Source: Thalassobaculaceae bacterium (lineage in GTDB: Bacteria > Pseudomonadota > Alphaproteobacteria > Thalassobaculales > Thalassobaculaceae). From it: DNA of 43,391 nucleotides. The stretch covers positions 6,002-49,392 of the forward strand of contig JARGOG010000014.1 of NCBI GenBank assembly GCA_029212785.1, given 5' to 3'. The notes under the pieces are model-generated. The model ran no database searches and was not told the origin of the DNA. It saw only the letters and a program-made list of their open reading frames with translations. Below are positions 1,649 through 34,194 of the stretch, piece by piece. The translations under genes were made by a program, and so were the position numbers. The first letter of the stretch is position 1. Each line of letters starts with the position of its first letter.

Positions 1649-2017
1649 TCATTTGCCGATCGCGAAGTCTCGCGTCGCAGCGTTGGCGATATCGGTCAGG
1701 TACGCAGTCCAGATCCCGTGGACAACCTTGCCGCCGGCGGCCAAAGCACTGACCTCCCCACCCATGGCCCCGCCGACGACGTTGCCGAGATAGGCGGCGG
1801 TCGAACCGCCGGACGAGTCGGTGATGGCCATGCTGAGGTAACTGTTCGGAAACCCTTGAACGACCCCTTTGAACTGACCGCCGCTGATCGAGATGCTCCC
1901 ATCGGCGGCAATCGTCATATTGAAGGTGTACCCGGGGTCCCCCGTCCATTTCTGCCAGACACACCAGTCCCCAGGGACGAAACCCGCGCTCGTATCAAAA
2001 GTTGCATCCGCGCTCAT
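1649..2017 (-). CDS. Hypothetical small protein, glycine/alanine/serine-rich
   Basis: A 122-residue orphan that I do not recognise. The ATG at 2017 is preferred because a strong GGAGGAGGAGG ribosome-binding site sits directly upstream; the longer frame from a GTG at 2035 would translate that site itself. There is no signal peptide. The N-terminal half has Trp/Cys/Tyr-containing segments (GDWCVWQKW) and the second half is rich in small residues (STAAYLGNVVGGAMGG), ending in a charged tail. The pattern suggests a small beta-rich fold, perhaps lipocalin-like or secreted by a non-classical route, but no function can be given. It is convergent with the lipoprotein gene and is preceded by an A/T-rich promoter-like region. 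Confidence 0.65.
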   Translation of the reverse strand: MSADATFDTSAGFVPGDWCVWQKWTGDPGYTFNMTIAADGSISISGGQFKGVVQGFPNSYLSMAITDSSGGSTAAYLGNVVGGAMGGEVSALAAGGKVVHGIWTAYLTDIANAATRDFAIGK

Positions 2018-2272
2018 CACACCCTCCTCCTCCACCGCTACAGCAGGTCGTTCCCGCTATTTTGGTCGGTTGGATTTTCAGAAATACTCGGTATGAGGGC
2101 ATTATGAGCATGTAGTTATTATTTTCAATATTTTTCTCGTTATACGAGTAACAATCAACCAAACGACCGAAGCGTGAACGCCAACCGCCATCCACAGCGA
2201 TTGCCGTCCCGTCCAATCCGACTTTGACTAAAGGTCCCAATCAGGCACTCGGTGAATTCCGATGTCTTCGGA
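2018..2272. promoter_or_regulatory. A/T-rich intergenic region with short inverted repeat
   Basis: This 255-base gap holds no convincing gene. It is markedly A/T-rich from about 2050 to 2160 compared with its surroundings and contains a perfect inverted repeat CTCGT-TAT-ACGAG at 2136-2148, a plausible operator. It should contain the promoter of the minus-strand small gene starting at 2017, whose ribosome-binding site is at about 2021-2034. The 3' end of the decarboxylase gene borders it at 2273; no T-tracted terminator is evident there. Confidence 0.4.
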
Positions 2273-3688
2273 TTACGAAGCCGCCGCCAACTGGCGGATC
2301 ACCGCCCACCCCTCTTCCACATGGCGCTGCTCGGTCGTGGTCTGGCCGATCGACATGCGGATGACGTAGTGCCCGTTCACTCGGTTCTGGGTCAGATAGA
2401 TCCGGCCATCGTCGTTGATCCGATGCAGCAGTGCTTCATTCAGCCGGTCCAGCTCCGCCGCGTCATCGACGCCGCGCGGATGGTAGCGGAAGTTGATCAG
2501 CGACAGCACCGGCGGCGCCATCACCTCGAAATCCGGCTCCTCTTCCACCCACTCGGCGAACAGGCCGCCCAGACGAACATGCTCGCGAATGATCGTGCGT
2601 AGTCCCTCCACCCCGTAGCTGCGGATCACGAACCAGAGCTTCAGCGCCCGGAACCGGCGGCCGAGCGGCACGCCCCAGTCCCGATAGTCGATCACCGCAT
2701 CGGCCTCCCGGCTCTTCAGGAATTCCGGCAGGATCGAGAAGGTGCGGATCAGCGCGTCCGGGTCCTTCACGAAATGGGCCGAGCAGTCGAAATTGGTCAA
2801 CAGCCACTTATGCGGGTTGAATACCACGCTGTCGGCCAGCTCGATCCCGTCGAACATCCAGCGGTGTTCGGGACAGATCAGCGCGCTACCGGCCCAGGCC
2901 GCGTCCACATGCAGGAAGATGTCGTGCCGGCGGCACAGTTCGCCGATCGCCCGAAGCGGATCGGCCGCGCCGACGCCGGTCCCACCGATCGAAGCGACGA
3001 CGCAGGCCGGCCGGATGCCGGCGGCGATATCGGCCTCGATGGCCGCCTCCAGGGCATCGACACGCAGCCGGAACTCCGCATCGACCGGGATCTTGCGGAA
3101 CCCGGCGAGGCCGAGTCCGGCGATCTTGACGTTCTTCTCGGTAGCGGAATGGGTCTGCTCGGAGGTGTAGACGGCGAGCGGCGGATGCGCGGACAACCCG
3201 TCGGCATTCACGCCCCAGCCCGTCGCCTTCTCCCGTGCCGTGAGGATGGCGGCCAGAATGGCGCTTGAGGCGCTGTCCTGGATCACCCCGGTAAAGCCCT
3301 CCGGCATGCCGACCATCTGGCGCAGCCAGTCGAGGACCTTGGTCTCCATCTCGGTCGCCGCCGGGCTGGTCTGCCACAGCATGCATTGCGCACCGAGGGT
3401 CGCCGTCAACATTTCCGCCAGCACCGAGGGCGGGCTGGAATTGGCCGGGAAATAGGCGAAGAAGCGCGGATGCTGCCAGTGGGTGATGCCCGGCATCACA
3501 TCGCGTTTGAAATCCTCGAAGATGGTCTCAAGCGTTTCGCCGTCCTGCGGCGGTCCGTCGGGCAGCTTGGCGGCGATCTCGCCGGGCCGGGTCTGGGCGC
3601 GCACCGGGTACTGCTCCACGCCCTCCAGGAAATCCGCCATCCAGTCGACCATCGCGTGGGCGTGACGGCGAAACTCGTCGGGGGTCAT
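2273..3688 (-). CDS. Pyridoxal-dependent aromatic-L-amino-acid decarboxylase family protein
   Basis: A 471-residue group II PLP-dependent decarboxylase, the usual length for aromatic-L-amino-acid (DOPA/tryptophan/tyrosine) decarboxylases. The N-terminal FRRHAHAMVDWMADFLE, the WQHPRFFAYFPANSS segment, His180 in TSEQTHSA (stacks on PLP), Asp262 in HVDAAWAG (binds the PLP ring nitrogen) and the Schiff-base Lys294 in FNPHKWLL are all present. It would convert an aromatic L-amino acid to the amine and CO2 in the cytoplasm; the exact substrate cannot be read. Its ATG overlaps the stop of the upstream oxygenase gene by 4 bases (ATGA, 3685-3688), so the two are translationally coupled and probably act in one pathway. 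Confidence 0.9.
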   Translation of the reverse strand: MTPDEFRRHAHAMVDWMADFLEGVEQYPVRAQTRPGEIAAKLPDGPPQDGETLETIFEDFKRDVMPGITHWQHPRFFAYFPANSSPPSVLAEMLTATLGAQCMLWQTSPAATEMETKVLDWLRQMVGMPEGFTGVIQDSASSAILAAILTAREKATGWGVNADGLSAHPPLAVYTSEQTHSATEKNVKIAGLGLAGFRKIPVDAEFRLRVDALEAAIEADIAAGIRPACVVASIGGTGVGAADPLRAIGELCRRHDIFLHVDAAWAGSALICPEHRWMFDGIELADSVVFNPHKWLLTNFDCSAHFVKDPDALIRTFSILPEFLKSREADAVIDYRDWGVPLGRRFRALKLWFVIRSYGVEGLRTIIREHVRLGGLFAEWVEEEPDFEVMAPPVLSLINFRYHPRGVDDAAELDRLNEALLHRINDDGRIYLTQNRVNGHYVIRMSIGQTTTEQRHVEEGWAVIRQLAAAS

Positions 3689-4476
3689 CGGTTGAGACCT
3701 ACGACACTGTCGAACTGCTGAGCTGTCAGATCGACGCGGCCCGAGGGGCCCTGAATGAACAGATCAAGCTCACCGCCCGCATCAAGCGTCGCGTAGAAGG
3801 CTGAATTTGACTTCGGATAGATCGGAAGATTGCCGATATCAACCATCCGAAACTCGATTGAATGCCGATCCCTGGTCGCTGCCTCCAGAACCTGGGTGCG
3901 ATGCATGATCCACTGATCGAACACCGCTCCAGATCCCGCCGGCGCAACGAGAGGCTTAGATGACCAAGCATCTTTGCCGAAAAGTTGGTCTAATTCATCG
4001 CTATGGAACGAGAGGCGCCGCTGCTGATCTGTTCGCTGCTTTATCTCATCCAGCAGCGTCTGAAGCCTTAATGGTGCGCCATTTGGCACGCAGATATCGA
4101 GCGCAGCACAGTCAACACCAACATCCTCGATTGCGGTCCAGGAGACCAGGAAAGGGCTCATGTCTCCGGCAAAGTTCAGATCAAGATGCCAATCGACCAT
4201 CTGCGCGCTGTCCTGCGCCTTCTGCCGACGAACGGTGGTGATGCTCAGACATAGACTGGGACTAACGCCATGGAGCGAGCGAAAGATGTCCGGCACCGGT
4301 CCCTTCAGGAAGGCATGCGCGATTGAGAAAAGCCCCCTTCGCTCACTAGGCGTAGCACGAGCGGTATCGAATGAGAACTTTCCGCCGATACGGGCCGCCA
4401 ACGCTTCGATGAGAGGCGCTGCGTCAATCACCGTTGTCGCCGGTAACGCGTCTCGAGTGACCTTGAAAACGGGCAT
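3685..4476 (-). CDS. Putative 2-oxoglutarate/Fe(II)-dependent oxygenase-like protein
   Basis: A 263-residue protein without a close named match that I can recall. A His97-x-Asp99 pair (DWHLDLNF) followed about 90 residues later by His192 (FDQWIMHRT), with Arg203 or Arg210 close behind, fits the iron-binding facial triad and 2-oxoglutarate-anchoring arginine of cupin-fold dioxygenases such as the PhyH family. That assignment is inference from motif spacing. The gene is clearly poorer in G+C than its neighbours: three sampled 60-base lines count 47-53%, against 75% in a pcm line. It lies 24 bases downstream of the LysM/M23 gene and is coupled by ATGA overlap to the decarboxylase, suggesting oxidation of an amino acid before or alongside decarboxylation. 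A ribosome-binding site AAGGAA precedes the ATG. Confidence 0.6.
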   Translation of the reverse strand: MPVFKVTRDALPATTVIDAAPLIEALAARIGGKFSFDTARATPSERRGLFSIAHAFLKGPVPDIFRSLHGVSPSLCLSITTVRRQKAQDSAQMVDWHLDLNFAGDMSPFLVSWTAIEDVGVDCAALDICVPNGAPLRLQTLLDEIKQRTDQQRRLSFHSDELDQLFGKDAWSSKPLVAPAGSGAVFDQWIMHRTQVLEAATRDRHSIEFRMVDIGNLPIYPKSNSAFYATLDAGGELDLFIQGPSGRVDLTAQQFDSVVGLNR

Positions 4477-4500
4477 AAAAATTCCTTCAGATGAACCGCT

Positions 4501-5619
4501 TTACCCGGCCTCCAGCATCGATATCTGCGCCGGCGGCAACTGCTTGCGCGGATCGACCGGGCGCGGGCCCTTGCGGATCTCGAAATGCAGCTGCGGCTGC
4601 GAGACGTTGCCGGTCTGGCCGACCGTGGCGATGACCTGGCCGCGCTGGACCTTGTCGCCCCGGCTCACCAGCAGCCGGTCGGCATGGGCGTAGGCCGTGG
4701 TGTAGCCGTCCTCATGCTTCACCAGCAGCAGGTTGCCGAAGCCGCGCAGCTCGTTGCCGGCATAGACGACGATGCCGTTCTCCGCCGCTCGCACCTCGGA
4801 GCCGGCGGGGGCCAGGATGTTGATTCCGTCATTGTGCAGCCCGCCCTCGCGCGGGCCGAAGCCGGAGATCACCCTGCCCTTCACCGGCCAGGTGAAGCCC
4901 CGACCCGTCGTGGCCGGCGGCGTCAGCGAAACCGTCCGTGTCCGACCGGCCGATGGCGGCGGCGCAGCCGTCGTCCGGGCGACGGTCGGCGGCGCCGATC
5001 CGGGACGCGGCTCGGGCGTTGGAATGCCCGGCGCCGCCGCGGCGGTCTGTGTGCCGCCGCCGGTTACGGGGAAATGTCGCTGGCCGCCGCCGCTCCACGG
5101 TTGGGAGACCGATCCGGCGGCACCCGATGGCGGCGGCGCGGCCCGCGCCGTCGCCGGCGGCTGGGGCACCGCTTTCGGCTGGCGCGCGGCGACGCTCACA
5201 CCGACCGGCTCCTCGCCGCCGGACGGCAGACGCAGACGGTCACCGATATGGATCGTATAGGGCGGGCGCAGATCGTTCAGCACGACGAGCGAGCGCATGG
5301 ACACGCTGTAGCGTTCGGCGATCTCCGACACCGTGTCGCCTGACCGCACCACGTGAATCGAACTCGCCGGCAACCGCAGGCGATCCCCCGGCCGCAACAG
5401 ATAGGGTGGGCGCAGTCCATTGGTGTCGATGATGGTGCGCGGGCTGACACCATAGCGTTGAGAGATCACGTAGACGTTGTCACCGGGCCGCACGACGACC
5501 AGGCCGCTCGCTGGCAGTCCGGCCGCGGCGCGCGGCGCATTGACGGCGCGCGGTGTCGCGCTCATGGCACAGCCCGCCATGAGTAGAGCGACAACGGCAA
5601 TGAGAACGGCCGGCTTCAC
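4501..5619 (-). CDS. LysM/M23 lipoprotein, NlpD/DipM-like, catalytically degenerate
   Basis: A 372-residue lipoprotein with a signal peptide ending at lipobox LMAGC (Cys17), two LysM peptidoglycan-binding domains (about 39-84 and 87-132), a long Pro/Ala/Thr-rich linker, and a C-terminal M23/LytM domain (about 245-360). The GTG at 5619 is preferred over an ATG at 5640 because it has a GAAGGTGG site and gives a normal signal peptide. In the LytM domain the usual H-x-G-I-D ligands read Asn263 and Asn267, and the first His of H-x-H is Gln343; only His312 and His345 remain. It is therefore probably a non-catalytic activator of cell-wall amidases, as NlpD/EnvC are in enterobacteria. It follows pcm, as in many Alphaproteobacteria. 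Confidence 0.88.
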   Translation of the reverse strand: MKPAVLIAVVALLMAGCAMSATPRAVNAPRAAAGLPASGLVVVRPGDNVYVISQRYGVSPRTIIDTNGLRPPYLLRPGDRLRLPASSIHVVRSGDTVSEIAERYSVSMRSLVVLNDLRPPYTIHIGDRLRLPSGGEEPVGVSVAARQPKAVPQPPATARAAPPPSGAAGSVSQPWSGGGQRHFPVTGGGTQTAAAAPGIPTPEPRPGSAPPTVARTTAAPPPSAGRTRTVSLTPPATTGRGFTWPVKGRVISGFGPREGGLHNDGINILAPAGSEVRAAENGIVVYAGNELRGFGNLLLVKHEDGYTTAYAHADRLLVSRGDKVQRGQVIATVGQTGNVSQPQLHFEIRKGPRPVDPRKQLPPAQISMLEAG

Positions 5620-5772
5620 GTCACCACCTTCAGGACACATGGGAAGGACGATATCGTGTCACACCGTTCTTATGACCTCAAACGTCGAATTATTCAATGA
5701 ATTCCGCATCATCTCAGTCGATTTTAACGATCAAGGTGATGACCAGTTCCCGAATCGGGCAGCGGGGACGCC

Positions 5773-17904: not shown

Positions 17905-18414
17905 ATGGATGCCCAAGCGCTTCGCGCCCTGCAGGCCCCGCTGAAGGACAAATACAAGGACGACCCGACCACCGCCGAACTGGTGCTGAGTGCGCAGGGA
18001 CGGCTTGGCGAAGGCGTTTCCTGCTCGCTCGAGACCGGCCGGGCGATCGCCGAGGCGGGCCTGCACCCGCTGGCCGGCGGCGACGGCACTCAGCTCTGCT
18101 CTGGCGACATGCTGCTCGAGGCCCTGGTCGCCTGCGCCGGAGTGACACTGAAGGCGGTGGCGACCGCCCTTGGTATCGAGGTCCGCGACGGCACCGTGAA
18201 GGCCACCGGCACGCTGGATTTCCGCGGCACGCTCGGCGTCGACCGGGAAGCGCCCGTCGGGTTTCGCGACATCCGTCTCGACTTCGAGATCGACGCCGAT
18301 GCCGATGCCGAGCAATTGGCCTCTTTGATCAAACTGACCGAGCGCTACTGTGTGGTGTATCAAACACTGAAGCGCACTCCCGACCTGCCGCCGCCGGCGA
18401 TCAGACTGGCCTAG
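17905..18414 (+). CDS. OsmC-family protein (putative peroxiredoxin-like)
   Basis: A 169-residue OsmC/Ohr-fold protein. The two cysteines expected of the family are Cys77 in LEALVACAGVTL and Cys149 in TERYCVVYQTL, which in characterised members form a reactive pair reducing organic hydroperoxides. Cys40 and Cys65 are additional. An AGGAAATGG ribosome-binding site precedes the ATG. The PhyH-family gene follows 35 bases downstream on the same strand, so the two are likely co-transcribed. Peroxidase activity is a family inference. Confidence 0.88.
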   Translation: MDAQALRALQAPLKDKYKDDPTTAELVLSAQGRLGEGVSCSLETGRAIAEAGLHPLAGGDGTQLCSGDMLLEALVACAGVTLKAVATALGIEVRDGTVKATGTLDFRGTLGVDREAPVGFRDIRLDFEIDADADAEQLASLIKLTERYCVVYQTLKRTPDLPPPAIRLA

Positions 18415-18449: not shown

Positions 18450-19313
18450 ATGGCTACCCCATCCCAGACGCCCGCTTCCGGCTCCCCACTTGCCAAGGCC
18501 TTCGCCCGCGACGGCTATGCCTTTCCGATCCGGGCCCTTGCCGCGGACCAGGCCACCTCGCTGCGCCGACGGCTGGAGCGCGCGGAGGCCGACGCCGCGA
18601 CGCAGGGGAACATGAAGGCCATGGTCACCGGGCTGCCGCACCTGGTCATGCCCGAATTCCACGACATCGTGCGCGATCCGGCCATCACCGACCCGGTTTC
18701 GGAAATCCTCGGCCAGGACCTGCTTGTCTGGGGCTGTTCCTTCTTCACCAAGGAGCCGCGCACCAAGAGCTTCGTGTCCTGGCACCAGGACCTGACCTAC
18801 TGGGGCCTGGATGACGTGGACAAGGTCACGGCCTGGGTGGCGCTGTCTCCGGCAACCTTGGAGAGCGGCTGCATGCGCTTCGTGTCGGGCAGCCATACCC
18901 AGCAGATCGTGCCGCACAAGGACACGTTCGATCCGGACAACCTGCTGACGCGCGGCCAGGAGGTTGCCGTCGAGGTGAAGGACGAGGACGCGATCGACGT
19001 CGAGCTGCAGCCGGGCGAGATGTCCCTGCACCACGGTCGGATCTTCCATGCCTCTCACCCGAACGCATCCGACGATCGCCGGATCGGGCTCGCGATCCGC
19101 TACATCAAGCCGAGCATGCGTCAGACATCGGGCGTCAAGACCTTCGCCGTTCTTGCCCGCGGCGAGGACCGTGTCGGCAATTTCGAGTTGGCGGCGCGGC
19201 CGGAGGGCGGCTTCAGCGACGCCGATGTCGAGCGCTGCCGCGAAGCCTTCCGCCGACGCGAGAGCATCCTCTACAGCGGCGCCACCGACGACGGCCGGCG
19301 GAAGATGGCTTAG
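18450..19313 (+). CDS. Phytanoyl-CoA dioxygenase (PhyH) family protein
   Basis: A 287-residue 2-oxoglutarate/Fe(II) oxygenase. The iron triad is His112-x-Asp114 in SWHQDLTYWG and His200 in RIFHASHPN, with a 2-oxoglutarate-binding arginine (Arg210/Arg211) in DDRRIGLAIRY. ALSPATLESGCMRFVSGSHT is a typical PhyH core. Substrates of bacterial members range from ectoine to small natural products, and this one is unassigned. A GGAGG site lies just before the ATG. It is unlike the oxygenase-like protein at 3685-4476 beyond the shared fold motif. Confidence 0.9.
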   Translation: MATPSQTPASGSPLAKAFARDGYAFPIRALAADQATSLRRRLERAEADAATQGNMKAMVTGLPHLVMPEFHDIVRDPAITDPVSEILGQDLLVWGCSFFTKEPRTKSFVSWHQDLTYWGLDDVDKVTAWVALSPATLESGCMRFVSGSHTQQIVPHKDTFDPDNLLTRGQEVAVEVKDEDAIDVELQPGEMSLHHGRIFHASHPNASDDRRIGLAIRYIKPSMRQTSGVKTFAVLARGEDRVGNFELAARPEGGFSDADVERCREAFRRRESILYSGATDDGRRKMA

Positions 19314-25675: not shown

Positions 25676-26974
25676 ATGGAACCGACCAGCGGTGGATTCG
25701 GCGGATATATCGATAGCTACTACAGCCGCACGCGCGATGACGGCGCCGGCTTCCCCCCGATGGACGGCGATCTCGATGTCGAGGTTTGCGTCGTCGGTGG
25801 CGGCATGGCCGGCGTGTCGACGGCGCTGGGCCTGGCCGAGCGCGGCCGGTCGGTCGCCCTGGTCGAGGCCAGGAGGATCGGCTGGGGTGCGTCTGGGCGC
25901 AATGGCGGCTTCGTCGGGGCGGGGTTCTCCCGCGGACTGCGGGCCCTGATCTCCCGCGTCGGCCAGGAGCACGCGCTGCAGCTCTACCGGCTCAGCGAAG
26001 ACGGCGTCGCACTGGTCCGCAAGCGCGCAGATGCGATCGCCGGCGGAGTCGCCCCGATCGTCGACGGCCGCGTCACATGTTCGTGGTTCGACGACGCGGA
26101 CGGGATCAGACGCGAAGCCGATTGGATGAACGACCTGACCGACGCCGGGATCGAGGTCTGGGACCGGGAAAAAACGCGCTCGATCTGGCGGACGCAGCGT
26201 TACTACGAGACCCTGTGGAAGCCCCAGGGCTTCACCTTCCACTCGCTCAACTTCACCCGCGGTAATGCCCGCACGGCGGCGGCGGCCGGTGCGAAGATCT
26301 TCGAGACGACACCGGCGCGCCATATCGAGCTCGGCCGCGATCCGAAACTGATCCACACCGACACCGGCATCATCCGCGCAGAGCATGTGGTGGTCTGCTG
26401 CTCCGGCTATATCGAGGGTCTTGTGCCGCGCCTCTCCGCCGCGACCCTGCCGATCGGCACTTATGTGGTGCTGACCGAACCGGTGGGCGAGCGTCTGAAG
26501 GATGTGATGGGCCTGCCGAACGGCGTCGGCGACACCCGCTTCGCCGCCGACTACTACCGCCCGCTGCCGGATACCCGGATCCTCTGGGGCGGACGGATCA
26601 GCCGTTGGACCGACCCGGCTCATCTCTCCGACACGATGATGGCGGACCTGAAGAAGGTCTACCCGCAGCTCGCCGAGCTGAAGGCGGAGGTCGCCTGGCC
26701 CGGCACCATGGGCTATGCGGCCCACAAGATGCCACAGATCGGACGCCTGCGGCCGGGCGTGTGGTACAGCCAGGGATATGGCGGTCACGGCATGGCCACG
26801 ACCACCATGGGCGGCGAGCTGATTGCCTCGGCCATCGCCGAGGGCGACGATCGCTGGACCCTGTTCAAACCGTTCGGCCTCACCCCCGTCGGCGGGCCGA
26901 TCGGCGCCTGGTACGCGCAGATGGTCTATTGGGGCTATCAGGCCCGCGACGCCTGGCGCGAGAGCCTGGGATAG
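25676..26974 (+). CDS. FAD-dependent oxidoreductase, DAO/PuuB-like
   Basis: A 432-residue flavoprotein. VCVVGGGMAGVSTALGLAER is the FAD-binding GxGxxG motif, followed by GWGASGRNGGF, typical of gamma-glutamylputrescine oxidase (PuuB/OrdL) and related amine or amino-acid oxidases. The C-terminal GYGGHGMATTTMGGELIASAI closes the FAD site. Such enzymes oxidise secondary or primary amines to imines, releasing hydrogen peroxide or passing electrons on. The ATG at 25676 has GGAGGGAG just upstream. The 6-phosphogluconate dehydrogenase gene starts 8 bases after the stop, so they share a transcript although no obvious metabolic link is visible. Confidence 0.9.
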   Translation: MEPTSGGFGGYIDSYYSRTRDDGAGFPPMDGDLDVEVCVVGGGMAGVSTALGLAERGRSVALVEARRIGWGASGRNGGFVGAGFSRGLRALISRVGQEHALQLYRLSEDGVALVRKRADAIAGGVAPIVDGRVTCSWFDDADGIRREADWMNDLTDAGIEVWDREKTRSIWRTQRYYETLWKPQGFTFHSLNFTRGNARTAAAAGAKIFETTPARHIELGRDPKLIHTDTGIIRAEHVVVCCSGYIEGLVPRLSAATLPIGTYVVLTEPVGERLKDVMGLPNGVGDTRFAADYYRPLPDTRILWGGRISRWTDPAHLSDTMMADLKKVYPQLAELKAEVAWPGTMGYAAHKMPQIGRLRPGVWYSQGYGGHGMATTTMGGELIASAIAEGDDRWTLFKPFGLTPVGGPIGAWYAQMVYWGYQARDAWRESLG

Positions 26975-33673: not shown

Positions 33674-33745
33674 CGGATGGCTCCTCCATGGGCCCGTGCA
33701 TTCTACAATCGATCCATTATGAGTTTTTTTAAATTTGCTTCTTTG

Positions 33746-33763
33746 AATTACGAATTTGTAATT
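33746..33763. promoter_or_regulatory. Candidate LysR operator
   Basis: AATTAC-GAATTT-GTAATT is a perfect 6-base-arm inverted repeat and contains the T-N11-A pattern favoured by LysR proteins (T33748 to A33760). It lies in the A/T-rich region between the divergent LysR gene and the small-protein gene, 73 bases before the regulator's start and 86 before the small protein's. LysR regulators commonly bind such divergent regions. Confidence 0.5.
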
Positions 33764-33848
33764 GTGCAGTGCGAAGATCAGATTGTGTCTCAGCAACGGA
33801 CGGCCACCAACCTCCCCACGTCCGGTTGCCCCAGACAGGAGACATGCC

Positions 33849-34049
33849 ATGAGCACCCAGACGATCCAGATGCGCACCATCACCGAGCAGGACATCGCGC
33901 GCGGTATCGCTGTCGGTCGACGCCTTCGCGCCCTCGCGGTTCAGTCCGCGATGAAGAGCGCCTTCGCGGCAGTGACCAAGCCGGTTGTCTCGCTTTTCAC
34001 CGGTTCCAAAACCGCCTCCCACGGCGGCGCTCACCCGGCAGCCGTTTGA
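33849..34049 (+). CDS. Small protein of unknown function (66 residues)
   Basis: A 66-residue orphan that I do not recognise. The start ATG has AGGAGA seven bases upstream. The N-terminal half is charged and helical (MRTITEQDIARGIAVGRRLR), followed by an amphipathic Ala-rich stretch (ALAVQSAMKSAFAAVTKP) and a short His/Gly tail. It has no signal peptide and no clear membrane segment. A strong terminator follows 25 bases after the stop, so it is a stand-alone transcription unit under the divergent LysR gene. The small size, strong translation signals and own terminator argue that it is a real gene. Confidence 0.72.
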   Translation: MSTQTIQMRTITEQDIARGIAVGRRLRALAVQSAMKSAFAAVTKPVVSLFTGSKTASHGGAHPAAV

Positions 34050-34074
34050 TCCCTGCTTAACGGCTGCCGTACGA

Positions 34075-34114
34075 GCGGCGCCGCCCCCGCCCCGGGGCGG
34101 CGCCGCACTCTTTT
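34075..34114 (+). terminator. Strong intrinsic terminator
   Basis: A perfect 13-base G/C stem, GCGGCGCCGCCCC (34075-34087) with its complement (34094-34106), around a 6-base loop and followed by ACTCTTTT. It ends the transcript of the 66-residue protein gene. Confidence 0.85.
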
Positions 34115-34194
34115 CCGGGATCGCCATGAGCCGACGACGCGGTATCCGCCTTCCCGCGCGCCTCGCAAATATCTCGCTGCAATGCAGCATGAGT

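Follow-up and report, generated by a model that had tools for sequence, protein, structure and literature searches.

Horizontally gained genes in existing operons were reportedly treated by Omelchenko et al. in 2003. The entry of foreign genes into existing operons is known, as stated in PMC2259305, and the locus analyzed in this study resembles these cases, as a foreign gene lies within an existing co-directional chain. Unlike in those cases, a single divergent enzyme subfamily supplies several insertions here, in related genomes. The closest described enzymes are, on the one hand, PtlH, PHYH, EctD, GriE, and SnoN/SnoK of the PhyH superfamily, with which the oxygenase of this locus shares an HxD...H motif, a downstream arginine, a length of about 260 residues and, by model and fold search, a double-stranded beta-helix. 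It differs from them in lying beyond the reach of the Pfam PhyH profile and in the changing genomic sites of its relatives. On the other hand, the neighboring decarboxylase resembles the aromatic-L-amino-acid decarboxylases (7xin, 6eei, and 1js3) by a full-length match and by its PLP motifs; compared to these enzymes nothing unusual was seen in it, and the congeners that were read have it as a native gene of the chain. Nothing relevant to the oxygenase-decarboxylase pair, the oxygenase subfamily or the organisms was found in open-access literature, judged by titles and the beginnings of abstracts.

The window, i.e., the whole stretch of 43,391 nucleotides that was analyzed, contains a chain of genes on the minus strand in the order serS, surE, pcm, a LysM/M23 peptidase gene, an ORF of 263 codons and an ORF of 471 codons. 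The names serS, surE, tatC, hslV, ppa, panE, and eamA are presumed from the translations, without a family search. The following features are of importance:

1649-2035, minus strand: genome-specific ORF of 128 aa beyond the decarboxylase gene, as seen from the oxygenase gene; at most a candidate for belonging to the oxygenase insert
2273-3688, minus strand: PLP enzyme of the aromatic-L-amino-acid-decarboxylase type, 471 aa, native
3685-3688, minus strand: ATGA overlap of 4 bp, formed by the oxygenase stop and the decarboxylase start
3685-4476, minus strand: PhyH-type Fe(II)/2-oxoglutarate oxygenase, 263 aa, an inserted and most likely solitary gene
4477-4500, minus strand: leader of the oxygenase gene, 24 bp, holding a Shine-Dalgarno-like GAAGGA
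4501-5640, minus strand: LysM/M23 peptidase gene, NlpD/DipM-like, native by synteny

The locus is very probably explained by a single foreign PhyH-type oxygenase gene, which was inserted between the M23 and decarboxylase genes of a native serS-surE-pcm-M23-decarboxylase chain and would have no link to the metabolism of the decarboxylase. The two ORFs with their ATGA overlap had already been reported in the first-pass annotation, and strand, coordinates and the 4-bp overlap at 3685-3688 were reproduced from the sequence. The LysM/M23 protein was assigned by Pfam (Peptidase_M23, 2.2e-31; LysM, 3e-24). The 128-aa ORF had no match in Pfam, PHROG, or PADLOC; together with the oxygenase gene it brackets the native decarboxylase gene.

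The 263-aa protein alone gave no match in Pfam, NCBIfam, PHROG, or PADLOC, none by phmmer in PDB chains and none in plasmid or phage records. The subfamily carries no name in the libraries searched and is strongly divergent. From 24 matches, an alignment of 22 sequences including that of the window was built, leaving out L010 and L015. Ten residues are invariant in all 22 sequences (H97, D99, W113, G181, F186, H192, T194, R204, E208, and R210). Among them is the iron-binding triad H97/D99/H192, so that the motif His97-x-Asp99...His192 named at first pass was confirmed. R204 follows 12 residues past H192; we take it to be the arginine for the 2-oxoglutarate carboxylate, which is expected about 10-12 residues past the distal histidine. 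A profile of the alignment matches PtlH at 5.2e-11. Pfam PhyH (PF05721) recognizes 14 of the 22 members at E<=0.1, the best of them at 4.6e-9, and no Pfam family recognizes the window protein itself.

An AlphaFold2 model built from four sequences is of middling quality (mean pLDDT 60.5, pTM 0.61). With this model, the top rows of a Foldseek search are Fe/2OG enzymes, namely PtlH (2rds, the best at 3.4e-06), ColD, CurA halogenase, SnoN, PHYH, and EctD. VIA-align places it on the proline hydroxylase 7dt0 (Z 12.2, rmsd 3.9, 205 aligned) and on human PHYH 2a1x (Z 11.5, rmsd 3.5, 194 aligned). Both programs thus find a double-stranded beta-helix, on a model with a pLDDT of 60.5. The fold match and the presence of the iron site residues bear out the earlier suggestion of a putative 2-oxoglutarate/Fe(II) oxygenase, and by alignment and model the 263-aa ORF is assigned to a divergent PhyH-type Fe(II)/2-oxoglutarate oxygenase. 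It most likely binds Fe(II) via H97/D99/H192 and 2-oxoglutarate via R204, and would accordingly be expected to be catalytically active.

The 471-aa protein matches Pfam Pyridoxal_deC (PF00282) over nearly its full length (3.9e-109) and the DOPA decarboxylase 7xin at 2.7e-134. Its residues H180, D262, K294, and Y335 sit in the expected motifs; K294 is presumably the PLP lysine and Y335 the catalytic loop tyrosine. These results agree with its first-pass description as a group II PLP aromatic amino acid decarboxylase. It is predicted to be a group II enzyme of the aromatic kind, with the substrate class assigned by likeness.

The two genes differ in base composition. The oxygenase gene has a G+C content of 56.3% and a GC3 of 0.606, the lowest in a comparison of 15 ORFs, called mechanically, from the first 16 kb. 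Among all 43 mechanically called ORFs of the window, two (25786-26265 and 33729-34190) have a lower GC3, and both were taken for putative shadow ORFs. The GC3 of the M23 gene, pcm, surE, serS, and tatC is 0.82-0.86, and the decarboxylase gene is host-like (GC 66.0%, GC3 0.862). The composition argument therefore covers one gene of the two, and the foreign look is seen in the oxygenase gene only. The gene had been noted before as G+C-poor, which is correct, but the values given (47-53% against about 75% for pcm) fit shorter stretches only, because windows of 300 bp inside the oxygenase gene reach 53-57% and the whole pcm gene has 67.6%.

The junction was found empty in relatives. In the congeners G002, G003, and G004, and in G009, which belongs to another genus of the same family, the M23 gene is directly followed by the decarboxylase gene, and hence the oxygenase is absent from this junction in all four relatives with the same locus. 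The spacing of the M23 and decarboxylase genes is 1 bp in G002 and G003, 10 bp in G004 and -4 bp in G009, compared to 812 bp around the 792-bp ORF in the window, where no further room and no recombinase gene of its own were found inside the insert. The decarboxylase is 91-92% identical in the three congeners, a value like that of its neighbors, and 83% identical in G009. Its position and conservation mark it as native to the chain. Horizontal acquisition, which had been proposed for the locus, thus holds for the oxygenase gene with its empty site and low GC3, and does not hold for the native decarboxylase gene.

The same comparison bears on the overlap. The decarboxylase gene begins with ATGA in all four syntenic relatives, and in G009 the stop codon of the M23 gene overlaps this ATGA just as the oxygenase stop does in the window. 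Since relatives without the oxygenase start with ATGA and the M23 gene of G009 overlaps likewise, the overlap appears to be a property of the receiving gene, namely the decarboxylase's own start. The overlap from which it had been concluded that both proteins are made together is real, but co-production is a conjecture, as the ATGA pre-exists without the oxygenase. Furthermore, three ORFs of the mechanical set of 43 lack a counterpart in the regions fetched from G002, G003, and G004, i.e., the oxygenase ORF, the 128-aa ORF (1649-2035) and an OsmC-like ORF on the plus strand (17905-18414, Pfam). The latter adjoins an ordinary PhyH oxygenase gene on the plus strand (18450-19313), which is conserved in the congeners.

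Of 98 genomes, 8 contain relatives of the oxygenase, its own included (E<=1e-3), and so do 2 of 385 genomes of the class at E<=1e-10, its own and that of one congener. Within the family, members are present in 12 of 36 genomes at E<=1e-10, in some cases only as short matches. An initial scan of genome contigs with the oxygenase alone and a scan of viral contigs found none, and a contig scan with a three-sequence oxygenase alignment found two loci. The set of 24 members leaves out weak or short profile matches. The nearest relatives of the window oxygenase are located at other loci and share 38-45% identity with it where aligned. Its own genome contains five strong members (profile, E<=1.1e-48) and three weak matches. 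The five form five separate lineages in a tree of the 24 members, where well-supported branches force five changes. One is found at the hslV/hisB junction, a second between ppa and a CoA-transferase gene, a third in a capsid cluster, a fourth beside tetR, and the fifth at the M23/decarboxylase junction of the window.

A comparison of eight sites showed that at six of them the genes flanking a member adjoin in relatives. Between hslV and hisB the spacing is 1036 bp with the member and 90-222 bp without it in 8 of 10 other genomes; of the remaining two, one was not measurable and one holds a MazE-like/PIN pair (L111, 2243-2922), which fills the junction occupied by the oxygenase in the own genome. 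The spacing of ppa and caiB is 856 bp with the member and 93-244 bp without it in 4 of 9 others, the other five comprising two with about 0.87 kb of other sequence and three that were not measurable. In G010, caiB and an aldehyde dehydrogenase gene are 895 bp apart, compared to -4 bp in 7 of the 9 other genomes, with two that were not measurable, and pgeF and the M24 gene 786 bp, compared to 2-25 bp in all 9 others. The panE/regulator junction measures 969 bp in G009 and 11 bp in the window (71 bp by ORF ends). In L124 (contig 1 of G010), an internal TAG is present in the CoA-transferase gene that precedes the inserted oxygenase.

The capsid cluster site contains genes for terminase, portal, scaffold and major head protein (PHROG). 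Here the member (L049, 7353-8141) lies on the opposite strand between the genes for the head scaffolding and major head proteins of a phage- or GTA-like cluster. In the five relatives read, the capsid/scaffold gap varies and holds other sequence but no oxygenase, and no clean empty site was seen. At the eamA/tetR site no member is found in G002, G004, and G009, and a different member in G003; the tetR matches in G007, G018, and G026 have no eamA within reach. The window's own genome (G000, contig 114; L133 and L141) has, next to the member and the intact tetR, a second tetR copy that is broken and 77% identical where best aligned; this block looks as if imported from a relative. Across the set, 22 of the 24 members have a GC3 below the median of their neighbors (Wilcoxon p 3e-5, indicative only, as the members are related and the neighbor ORFs mechanically called); in L046 and L095 it is not low.

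The first-pass annotation had interpreted the two genes as a two-enzyme biosynthetic unit. Such a functional pair, in which an aromatic amino acid, or else the amine made by the decarboxylase, is the substrate of the oxygenase and both genes form a route to a hydroxylated amine, would fit two intact, overlapping genes on the same strand and a decarboxylase that keeps what we take to be the PLP lysine and loop tyrosine of true decarboxylases. The survey of neighborhoods makes it very improbable. A decarboxylase match at E<=1e-60 was obtained in 30 of the 98 genomes searched, and the oxygenase adjoins it in one of these, the window's own. Five of the 30 also have an oxygenase match at E<=1e-3 (G000, G002, G003, G007, and G009): in G002, G003, and G009 the M23/decarboxylase site is empty, and in G007 the decarboxylase match is only 33% identical, and the nearest oxygenase match on its contig is about 62 kb away. 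The decarboxylase flanks were read for 20 of 31 match rows (L025-L044). Among 105 loci, both genes occur together only at the window's own place (L001, L025, and L063), and in 22 fetched surroundings of the 23 other members no decarboxylase relative was found at E<=1e-4. The pair is thus conserved in no other genome searched, an outcome that the first-pass annotation had itself named as refuting its proposal. The decarboxylase is conserved without the oxygenase, the 23 other members adjoin other genes, and the overlap stems from the decarboxylase's first bases. The apparent partnership is probably an accident of the landing place; as the oxygenase ORF is intact, a partnership may have been acquired after the insertion.

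Other readings concern the history and the target of the oxygenase. That it is an old resident, which was lost in the relatives instead of gained here, would suit the 12 family genomes with members, but it requires that the gene disappeared from the other congeners as well as from G009. The low GC3 and the distance of the closest relatives, all at other loci, also speak against it, and we regard it as quite improbable; a gain is favored over parallel losses by parsimony on five genomes. Scarcely credible is an action on a target of the host chain, e.g., on cell wall metabolism through the M23 protein, instead of a free small molecule. Its position in the chain speaks for this, whereas other members lie in unrelated chains for histidine synthesis, with CoA transferase and aldehyde dehydrogenase genes, or among capsid genes.

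The insertion of a foreign gene is thus the preferred explanation, and the oxygenase is, most likely, a solitary hydroxylase of horizontal origin. The foreign gene would have entered the M23/decarboxylase junction by recombination, without evident harm, and would have brought its own Shine-Dalgarno-like sequence, as GAAGGA in its leader may be read. It is probably transcribed from the promoter of the host chain. The decarboxylase would stay coupled in translation, since the stop codon of the oxygenase falls within the ATGA of the decarboxylase. The oxygenase would then hydroxylate a small molecule other than the substrate or product of the decarboxylase.

How the genes move was analyzed with two oxygenase copies at different loci of G007 and G026 (L096, 6415-7212; L097, 6187-6984), which share 91% DNA identity. 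The homology of this one pair covers 809 bp, beginning at the start codon and ending 10-11 bp beyond the stop; outside the gene, the sole further match across two 13-kb stretches is one of 36 bp elsewhere. With this single pair, and with a transposase-like ORF about 220 bp upstream of the G007 copy, one flank may have been replaced later. No shared terminal motif was seen in the flanks of 23 members by pairwise BLAST and by eye. A 60-bp match past the stop of two G007 copies overlies, by its coordinates, the 3' end of a neighboring ORF at one of them; we read it as a copied flank. Proximity to tRNA genes was discarded as a general insertion rule, since two of the 22 scanned loci (L054 and L097) have a tRNA gene near the member.

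A more far-reaching proposal is that the subfamily spreads as bare coding sequences. Single genes that bring neither recombinase nor promoter would repeatedly enter housekeeping chains of one bacterial family at their gene junctions, perhaps carried by phage- or GTA-like particles, and would be kept by borrowed expression; the start and stop codons themselves may be the ends of the moving unit. The phage- or GTA-like carriage is suggested because one member lies inside a capsid gene cluster. We consider this proposal unlikely. Transposase-, recombinase- or integrase-like ORFs were recognized by eye near L046, L095, and L096, and members are not always solitary, as two stand in tandem in G007 (L047) and the L098 member adjoins a G+C-poor ORF in a small-island-like arrangement. 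Additionally, strain-specific insertions are not confined to oxygenases, with two others among the 43 ORFs of the window. Strain-specific genes at similar junctions, mobile-like ORFs nearby and tandem members speak against a special mechanism.

In conclusion, a tempting minimal pathway is dropped as unsupported, and a 4-bp gene overlap alone is poor evidence of partnership; here it says little, because it pre-existed as the decarboxylase's own start. Less ordinary is the repeated insertion by one divergent subfamily within one bacterial family. A divergent oxygenase subfamily was brought to light, whose members appear singly at differing places in related genomes, and if the bare-gene boundary holds in more pairs, their mode of movement would be worth finding.
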